Source: a virus. Taken from it: a stretch of 24,569 nucleotides of DNA. The stretch covers positions 1 to 24,569 of IMG/VR virus record IMGVR_UViG_3300026097_000787; one strand, written 5' to 3'. The translations under genes and the position numbers were made by a program. Shown in pieces: positions 22,941 through 24,034 of this stretch; within the stretch, counting starts at the first letter, position 1, and every line of letters begins with the position of its first letter. Under the pieces are notes generated by a model, which was given only the letters and a program-made list of their open reading frames with translations, did not search any database and was not told the origin of the DNA.

Positions 22941-23483
22941 TTGATTAGATTTATACACATTAAAAAGAATGGTGGCACCAGTGTTTATAAGTTTCTAAGA
23001 AAACACGGTGTATCGTTTGCTCTTGGAGATACCAAAGATATATTTAAAATTTACAATCAACACATTCCAGCTTCAAGATATAAAGATGAGGACAGTTGGA
23101 AGTTCTGTGTTTCAAGAAATCCGTATAGCAGGGTAGTTAGTTTTTATAATTGGATGAAACAACTTCCTAAATATAAAAATATTACATTTGAGAAATTTGT
23201 TAAAGATTTTTACAATATTGGAAGAGCTAGTGGTGTTTGGAATTTACAAACAGATTATATGCTGGACAACTCTAACATTAACTTAATAGATAAAATTTTT
23301 AAATTTGAAACAATGTCTGAGGATATTCCAAAACATTTTAACATCGATGCTAAATTTCCGCACCTTAATCCTAGCACACCTGATGATTACAGAAAATATT
23401 ATAATGACGAATTACAAGAAATAGTATATAATAAATTAAAATATGATTTTGAATATTTGGAATATAATAAATGCCTGATATAG
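22941..23483 (+). CDS. Sulfotransferase family 2-like protein (copy 2)
   Basis: 180 residues, beginning at a TTG (22941) because no ATG is close and AGAAGGAAAAC supplies a ribosome-binding site. HIKKNGGTS (6-14) corresponds to HIPKTGGSS of copy 1 (PAPS 5'-loop, with P-to-K and T-to-N changes), and RNPYSRVVSFY (59-69) to the 3'-phosphate motif. The MIRFIHI start, WNLQTDYML and KIFKFETM segments align with copy 1. The altered phosphate loop could change donor affinity. It overlaps the DnaE-like ORF by 13 nt. Sulfation of a glycan is the inferred role, with PAPS possibly from the APS-kinase-like gene 1.5 kb upstream. Confidence 0.75.
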   Translation: MIRFIHIKKNGGTSVYKFLRKHGVSFALGDTKDIFKIYNQHIPASRYKDEDSWKFCVSRNPYSRVVSFYNWMKQLPKYKNITFEKFVKDFYNIGRASGVWNLQTDYMLDNSNINLIDKIFKFETMSEDIPKHFNIDAKFPHLNPSTPDDYRKYYNDELQEIVYNKLKYDFEYLEYNKCLI

Positions 23484-24034
23484 ATATAGACTTTGTCGAC
23501 AGAGAACAAGCACTAGAACTGTTTAAACATACTAGAGCTAGTCGTCGTGAAGAGGATCGACTTGTGAAACACAACACAGGTGTGTACCTTCACGAAGTCC
23601 CAGTTGATGCTGTATCTAATCTATGTGCTGTGCCATATGATCAAGCAGACGAATATGGCTACTTTAAACTTGACTTCTTGAATGTAAGTATGTATAACGG
23701 TGTTCGCAGTGAAGAGCATCTTGTAGAACTTATGAACAAGGAGCCTCTATGGGATTTGTTAGAGCAGGAAGATTTTGTCAACCTATTGTTCCACATCAAC
23801 GGACACGTCAGCATTTGCCAACAGATGAAACCAAAAAGCATAGAACATCTAGCGGCAGTACTAGCAGTAATTCGCCCAGCAAAGAGACACCTCATAGGAA
23901 GGACTTGGGAAGAAGTTCTCGAAGAAGTTTGGACTAAACCCGAACAAGGTTATTATTTTAAGAAGTCGCATGCTACGGCTTATGCGGTTGCTATTGTTGT
24001 ACAGATGAATTTAATTTGTGAACAGATTAGCTAG
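23471..24034 (+). CDS. Miniature DnaE-like (DNA polymerase III alpha) protein
   Basis: 187 residues. It starts exactly at MPDIDIDFVDR, the C-family polymerase palm motif (PDFDVDF in E. coli DnaE, which holds two metal-binding aspartates; here D3, D5, D7). GVYLHEVPVDAV...EYGYFKLDFLNV (37-72) matches the HAAGV ... LVKFDFLGL segment, with D68 as the third catalytic aspartate. ICQQMKPKSIEHLAAVLAVIRPAK parallels the FED(x)[10 protein letters not shown] region, and FKKSHATAYAVAIVVQM (163-179) the FNKSHSAAYAL segment. DnaE is about 1,160 aa; PHP, thumb, most of the fingers, beta-binding and OB parts are missing. It could be a minimal polymerase-like enzyme, an inhibitor or decoy of host Pol III, or a regulator. 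Confidence 0.8.
   Translation: MPDIDIDFVDREQALELFKHTRASRREEDRLVKHNTGVYLHEVPVDAVSNLCAVPYDQADEYGYFKLDFLNVSMYNGVRSEEHLVELMNKEPLWDLLEQEDFVNLLFHINGHVSICQQMKPKSIEHLAAVLAVIRPAKRHLIGRTWEEVLEEVWTKPEQGYYFKKSHATAYAVAIVVQMNLICEQIS

Follow-up and report, generated by a model that had tools for sequence, protein, structure and literature searches.

An environmental virus gene for one half of a probable split and minimal DNA polymerase III alpha

The 24.6-kb environmental viral fragment analysed here (24,569 nt, IMG/VR record IMGVR_UViG_3300026097_000787; hereafter the window) carries on its plus strand a gene, here termed gene B (23471..24034), which codes for the C-terminal part of a minimal form of bacterial DNA polymerase III alpha (Pol III alpha, DnaE) that is probably divided over two genes. 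Its 187-residue product, a member of the family PHROG 11778, comprises the Mg2+- and template-binding part of the palm together with reduced fingers. The genomes of its relatives possess a separate, distant gene, here termed gene A, for the N-terminal nucleoside triphosphate-binding part. We consider it likely that proteins A and B together make up a minimal family C polymerase core, to which A contributes the N-terminal palm part and B the C-terminal half, and that this core has a short-range role in the replisome.

A conserved palm-and-fingers piece of DnaE

The ATG of gene B sits immediately 3' of an in-frame TAA, and its product displays a series of motifs in the order in which they occur in DnaE, namely PDIDIDF, KHNTGVY, KLDFL, MKPKSIEHLAAVLAVIRPAK and YYFKKSHATAYA. 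The palm motif PDIDIDF (residues 2–8; 23474..23494, like the other motifs on the plus strand) supplies D3 and D5, which alignment to sequences from the PDB equates with D401 and D403 of E. coli DnaE. KHNTGVY (residues 33–39; 23567..23587) was matched by inspection to DnaE KHAGGVV (E. coli 510–516), and KLDFL (residues 66–70; 23666..23680) supplies the third catalytic aspartate, D68, equivalent to E. coli D555. These are followed by the fingers segment MKPKSIEHLAAVLAVIRPAK (residues 119–138; 23825..23884), which has a 20-residue E. coli counterpart and ends in IRPAK (134–138), and by YYFKKSHATAYA (residues 161–172; 23951..23986), which includes FKKSHATAYA (163–172) and corresponds to E. coli GYGFNKSHSAAYA (753–765). 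An initial annotation of the window had described a 187-residue reading frame with PDIDIDF, KLDFL, IRP and FKKSHATAYA segments in DnaE order, and all of these are confirmed.

Residue invariance was judged on an alignment of 114 diverse members of the family. The positions that do not vary are D3, D5, D7, H34, G37, P44, K66, D68, R135, P136, K138, F163, K164, H167 and N180; within the fingers segment P121 and I134 are likewise invariant alongside R135, P136 and K138. Hence all three family C palm aspartates (PDxDxD, KxDFL) are present in protein B and fixed across these 114 sequences. The median ratio of nonsynonymous to synonymous substitution rates (dN/dS) of gene B is 0.085 (136 close pairs). 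Since these residues are invariant across the 114 members and dN/dS is this low, gene B is a conserved gene under selection and not a decaying fragment, as had been argued from the retained aspartates.

The DnaE ancestry proposed in the initial annotation is firm from both profile and fold searches. The PHROG 11778 profile, annotated as “DNA polymerase”, matches protein B with E=1.8e-70, and a Pfam search gave one sub-threshold match to the DnaE finger (E=0.05). An hhalign comparison with the single E. coli DnaE sequence was weak (probability 9%) because the spacing of the motifs differs, and the fold comparison settled the identity. Single-chain AlphaFold2 models of proteins A and B were computed from alignments built from viral contigs. 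The model of protein B (114-row alignment; mean predicted local distance difference test score (pLDDT) 92.9, predicted template modelling score 0.77) returned bacterial Pol III alpha or PolC for each of the first 16 PDB matches in Foldseek (best E=1.4e-3, probability 1.00) and for each of the first 15 rows in VIA-align (Z 6.0–9.7), the next row having a Z of 3.2. The whole length of the protein (residues 1–187) aligns by VIA-align to Taq 461–837, E. coli 400–780 and PolC 971–1295. The model thus represents the palm plus fingers of the Taq and E. coli Pol III alpha, from PDxDxD through FNKSH, and the Pol-beta-like palm that had been predicted is recovered. Relative to the bacterial DnaE structures (Taq 2hpi/3e0d, E. 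coli 2hnh/5fkw), protein B shares the palm aspartates, KHxxGV, KxDFL, the fingers RP and FxKSHAxAYA in the same order, with VIA-align Z scores of up to 9.7 over 185 residues at 22% identity.

The span covered by the 187 residues of protein B takes up ~380 residues in bacterial DnaE. From the motif positions, E. coli 407–508, the thumb region, is reduced to ~25 residues, and E. coli 643–752, which contains the LRRAMGKK segment (708–715), to ~22 residues. In the fold comparison with Pol III alpha, protein B has none of the PHP, thumb, beta-binding and OB parts and lacks the LRRAMGKK segment and most of the fingers, much as the initial annotation had it.

Relatives of gene B were found in at least 548 IMG/VR stretches and in 63 phage records, including those of RaK2, 121Q, GAP32, CBB, PA5oct, Atu_ph07, XacN1, SCTP-2 and Alishewanella phages. 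Across 84,980 species genomes, the matches listed include at least two close and at least two weak ones. The close ones lie on contigs binned with a Natrialbaceae and a Pacearchaeota metagenome-assembled genome, both archaeal; we take these for stray phage contigs. A cellular origin of gene B was considered and set aside, the close matches among those listed being confined to these contigs.

Protein A and the point of the split

The GRGS nucleotide-binding motif of family C polymerases is absent from the protein B chain and is carried by protein A instead. In the genomes of B relatives PF07733, the DnaE palm family, never matched more than once, always in the separate gene A, and the search recovered no other DnaE piece, full-length DnaE included, in the relatives examined. 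Protein A (~157 residues; PHROG 11127; PF07733 match at 7.1e-12) contains WGVGRGSSVxSY, which corresponds to DnaE GPGRGSGAGS, and G121, G123, R124, G125 and S126 are invariant in the 113 members aligned. Gene A is likewise under purifying selection (median dN/dS 0.107). Its product maps to E. coli DnaE 320–395 by hhalign, and its AlphaFold model (pLDDT 90.3) gave Pol III alpha or PolC in 15 of 15 VIA-align rows (Z 7.7–12.3), with residues 57–157 aligning to E. coli 276–395, Taq 294–457 and PolC 821–967. The protein A C-terminus, ...KYxLxxxEFFKGE, falls at DnaE ...ERFLNPER. As protein A covers E. coli DnaE up to residue 395 and protein B from 399–400 onwards, the split lies in a gap of 3–4 residues: the DnaE chain is cut after the GRGS segment and ahead of the first catalytic strand, just before PDxDxD. 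For PolC of Geobacillus (3f2b), the alignment of protein B spans 971–1295 (Z 9.4) and that of protein A 823–967 (Z 8.4). In Gram-positive bacteria PolC is one long polypeptide that contains PHP, exonuclease and OB parts.

The two genes co-occur almost without exception. Of the 63 phage records with gene B, 59 gave a tblastn match to gene A, and profile detection in Phosso and Alishewanella phage Slicko01 brings the records with both genes to 61 of 63. The remaining two are W12-3, a 109-kb partial record, and Slickus01, a sibling of near-equal length in which gene A was not searched separately. Additional phage matches to the GAP32 protein A query were weak and resembled full DnaE genes or came from unannotated short contigs. 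In the reciprocal direction, gene B is present in 11 of 14 large A-bearing IMG/VR contigs.

A predicted two-protein palm and its alternatives

Protein A would contribute the N-terminal part of the palm with its GRGS nucleotide-binding motif, and protein B the strand bearing PDxDxD, the aspartate of KxDFL and what is left of the fingers (IRP...FKKSHA). Folding side by side, the two chains would restore one Pol-beta-type active site that could transfer nucleotides via two metal ions. The anatomy seen in the two models strongly backs this prediction of a single nucleotide-transferring palm. Because the thumb, the LRRAMGKK segment and the clamp-binding and OB parts have been lost, such an enzyme is expected to be poorly processive and to perform a short-range task in a family B replisome rather than bulk replication; candidate tasks are primer extension or hand-off, or gap filling near the primase-helicase and clamp loader.

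The genomic context is consistent with a replisome role. A family B polymerase (PF00136) was found in 9 of 12 and in 13 of 14 records of relatives, and the records without it are probably fragments. In annotated phages the gene next to B is small and convergent, after which come one or two further genes, a primase and a DnaB-like helicase, and a gp44-like clamp loader lies a few genes downstream of gene A. We regard template-directed DNA synthesis by the pair at the replisome as an evenly balanced prediction. Slightly below this we would place the fuller proposal that the pair is a working two-chain, thumb-less family C polymerase or nucleotidyltransferase inside a family B replisome, with a core of ~340 residues and possibly a relic of a pre-fusion bacterial Pol III. 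The initial annotation had suggested a miniature polymerase or minimal nucleotidyltransferase; the nucleotidyltransferase idea comes close, but that of a stand-alone enzyme is not supported, since the GRGS half of the palm sits in a second gene.

Several observations weigh against an A:B polymerase. A search of the 24.6-kb window for gene A found none, and that this phage has the pair is inferred from its relatives. No A+B fusion occurs among the 177 A and 169 B open reading frames (ORFs) examined, and gene fusion thus lends the pairing no support. Three A-bearing contigs of 191–202 kb are without gene B, which may lie outside them if they are fragments. Finally, as the LRRAMGKK segment of the fingers is replaced by ~22 residues, templated selection of deoxynucleotides by an enzyme built on the protein B model may have been lost.

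The last point leads to the foremost alternative, that the two proteins assemble and perform some other nucleotidyl transfer, such as non-templated tailing or the modification of nucleotides or proteins, instead of templated DNA synthesis. In its favour are the reduction of both the thumb region and E. coli 643–752, the invariance of all core palm motifs and the family B polymerase available for replication. Yet the fingers motifs IRPxK and FKKSHA are kept as invariantly as the aspartates, and the neighbours are a primase, a helicase and a clamp loader; we hold this alternative to be rather unlikely, if the most serious of those considered.

Considerably less probable is a decoy or regulator, as entertained in the initial annotation, whereby protein B, alone or together with protein A, would bind partners of the host Pol III or host replisome parts and perform no chemistry. 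Protein B is indeed small and derived from a host-type DnaE, and the phage owns another polymerase. In DnaE, however, the tau subunit, the beta clamp and the epsilon subunit are bound by the C-terminal, beta-binding and PHP parts, which are those missing from protein B; thus, the regions for host contacts have gone and those for catalysis have stayed constant. A pure decoy would have no need for an invariant catalytic triad and a co-inherited GRGS subunit, both of which persist over large divergence, and the same two-gene set recurs in phages of very different hosts. That protein B acts alone as a DNA- or nucleotide-binding protein, independently of protein A, is very improbable: some large B-bearing contigs indeed lack a detected gene A, but these are probably fragments, and 61 of the 63 phage records carry both genes, the other two being the partial record and the sibling given above. 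In one such contig (280.0 kb) a suitably oriented family B polymerase lies at 260.6 kb, and since gene A of its sister contigs lies ~22–25 kb past that polymerase, it is expected here just beyond the contig end.

The two-protein polymerase has been predicted before. In group 2.2 jumbo phages, Iyer et al. (2021; Viruses 13:63, PMC7824862) described a split minimal Pol III alpha, without other Pol III domains, alongside a family B polymerase, and made the same proposal as we do here. Hence, the presence of a trimmed Pol III core in such a phage, which the initial annotation had called unexpected, no longer is so, and the family is the less surprising for having been published. Our literature search on phage forms of Pol III that are split, minimal or similar to DnaE, of partial coverage, returned only this study as relevant. 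Gene B of the window is a further member: it shares the homology of the C-terminal half with the published proteins, and the window, unlike those phages, has the C-terminal gene only. An earlier report on Pectobacterium phage CBB (2017; PMC5259590) calls CBB_328 (172 residues) a “truncated Pol III alpha”; this corresponds to the A half, and the passages of that report available to us make no mention of the B half. To this picture we add the split point from two fold models, the residue invariance in both halves, the selection on them, their near-complete co-occurrence and two recurring gene neighbourhoods. We also extend the pair to the 141-kb Alishewanella phage Slicko01, which in contrast to the phages of Iyer et al. 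is below jumbo size. If the pair is active, the polymerase that replicates bacterial genomes would have a minimal, two-chain counterpart operating next to a family B enzyme of eukaryote-like type, with a bearing on the division of labour in phage replisomes and on the evolution of Pol III. Cultured phages that infect E. coli, Klebsiella, Pseudomonas and Agrobacterium carry the pair, which makes this directly testable.

Neighbouring genes and other features

Gene B is met at its 3' end by a convergent gene on the minus strand (24027..24398), the end of which overlaps its own and which codes for a 123-residue protein of PHROG 11637, a family of unknown function. A convergent overlapping gene lies 3' of gene B in 116 of 160 testable relatives, and the annotated phages have the same layout. 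Its conservation suggests a shared 3' end or an antisense relation with gene B. On the other side, a sulfotransferase-like ORF (22941–23483, plus strand) directly precedes gene B with a 13-nt overlap and is possibly a cargo insertion. It is related to a second ORF of the window (372–941, minus strand), the pair being marked by IRFIHIPKTGGSSV and IRFIHIKKNGGTSV (372–941 and 22941–23483, respectively).

With respect to the wider replication apparatus, a DnaQ-like exonuclease was considered as a fixed third subunit, but no more than 3 of 15 records had a match above the cut-off, and it does not emerge as a core partner. Matches to the family B polymerase are spread over two ORFs in Atu_ph07 (NC_042013.1, 212336–213688) and Paride (OR805295.1, 88906–92683) and lie in a single ORF in Phosso and GAP32.

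Elsewhere in the window, the ORFs at 21481–21897 and 22054–22512 match residues 1–102 and 122–228, respectively, of the phage “kinase” family PHROG 10255, with a small ORF (21894–22109) between them, such that the kinase gene appears to be split. Several tandem paralogues belonging to one family, at 2423–8109 and 16773–17567, share a pattern resembling LKPWRxxGxxILI ... VLYGIPAF and are probably surface sugar genes.
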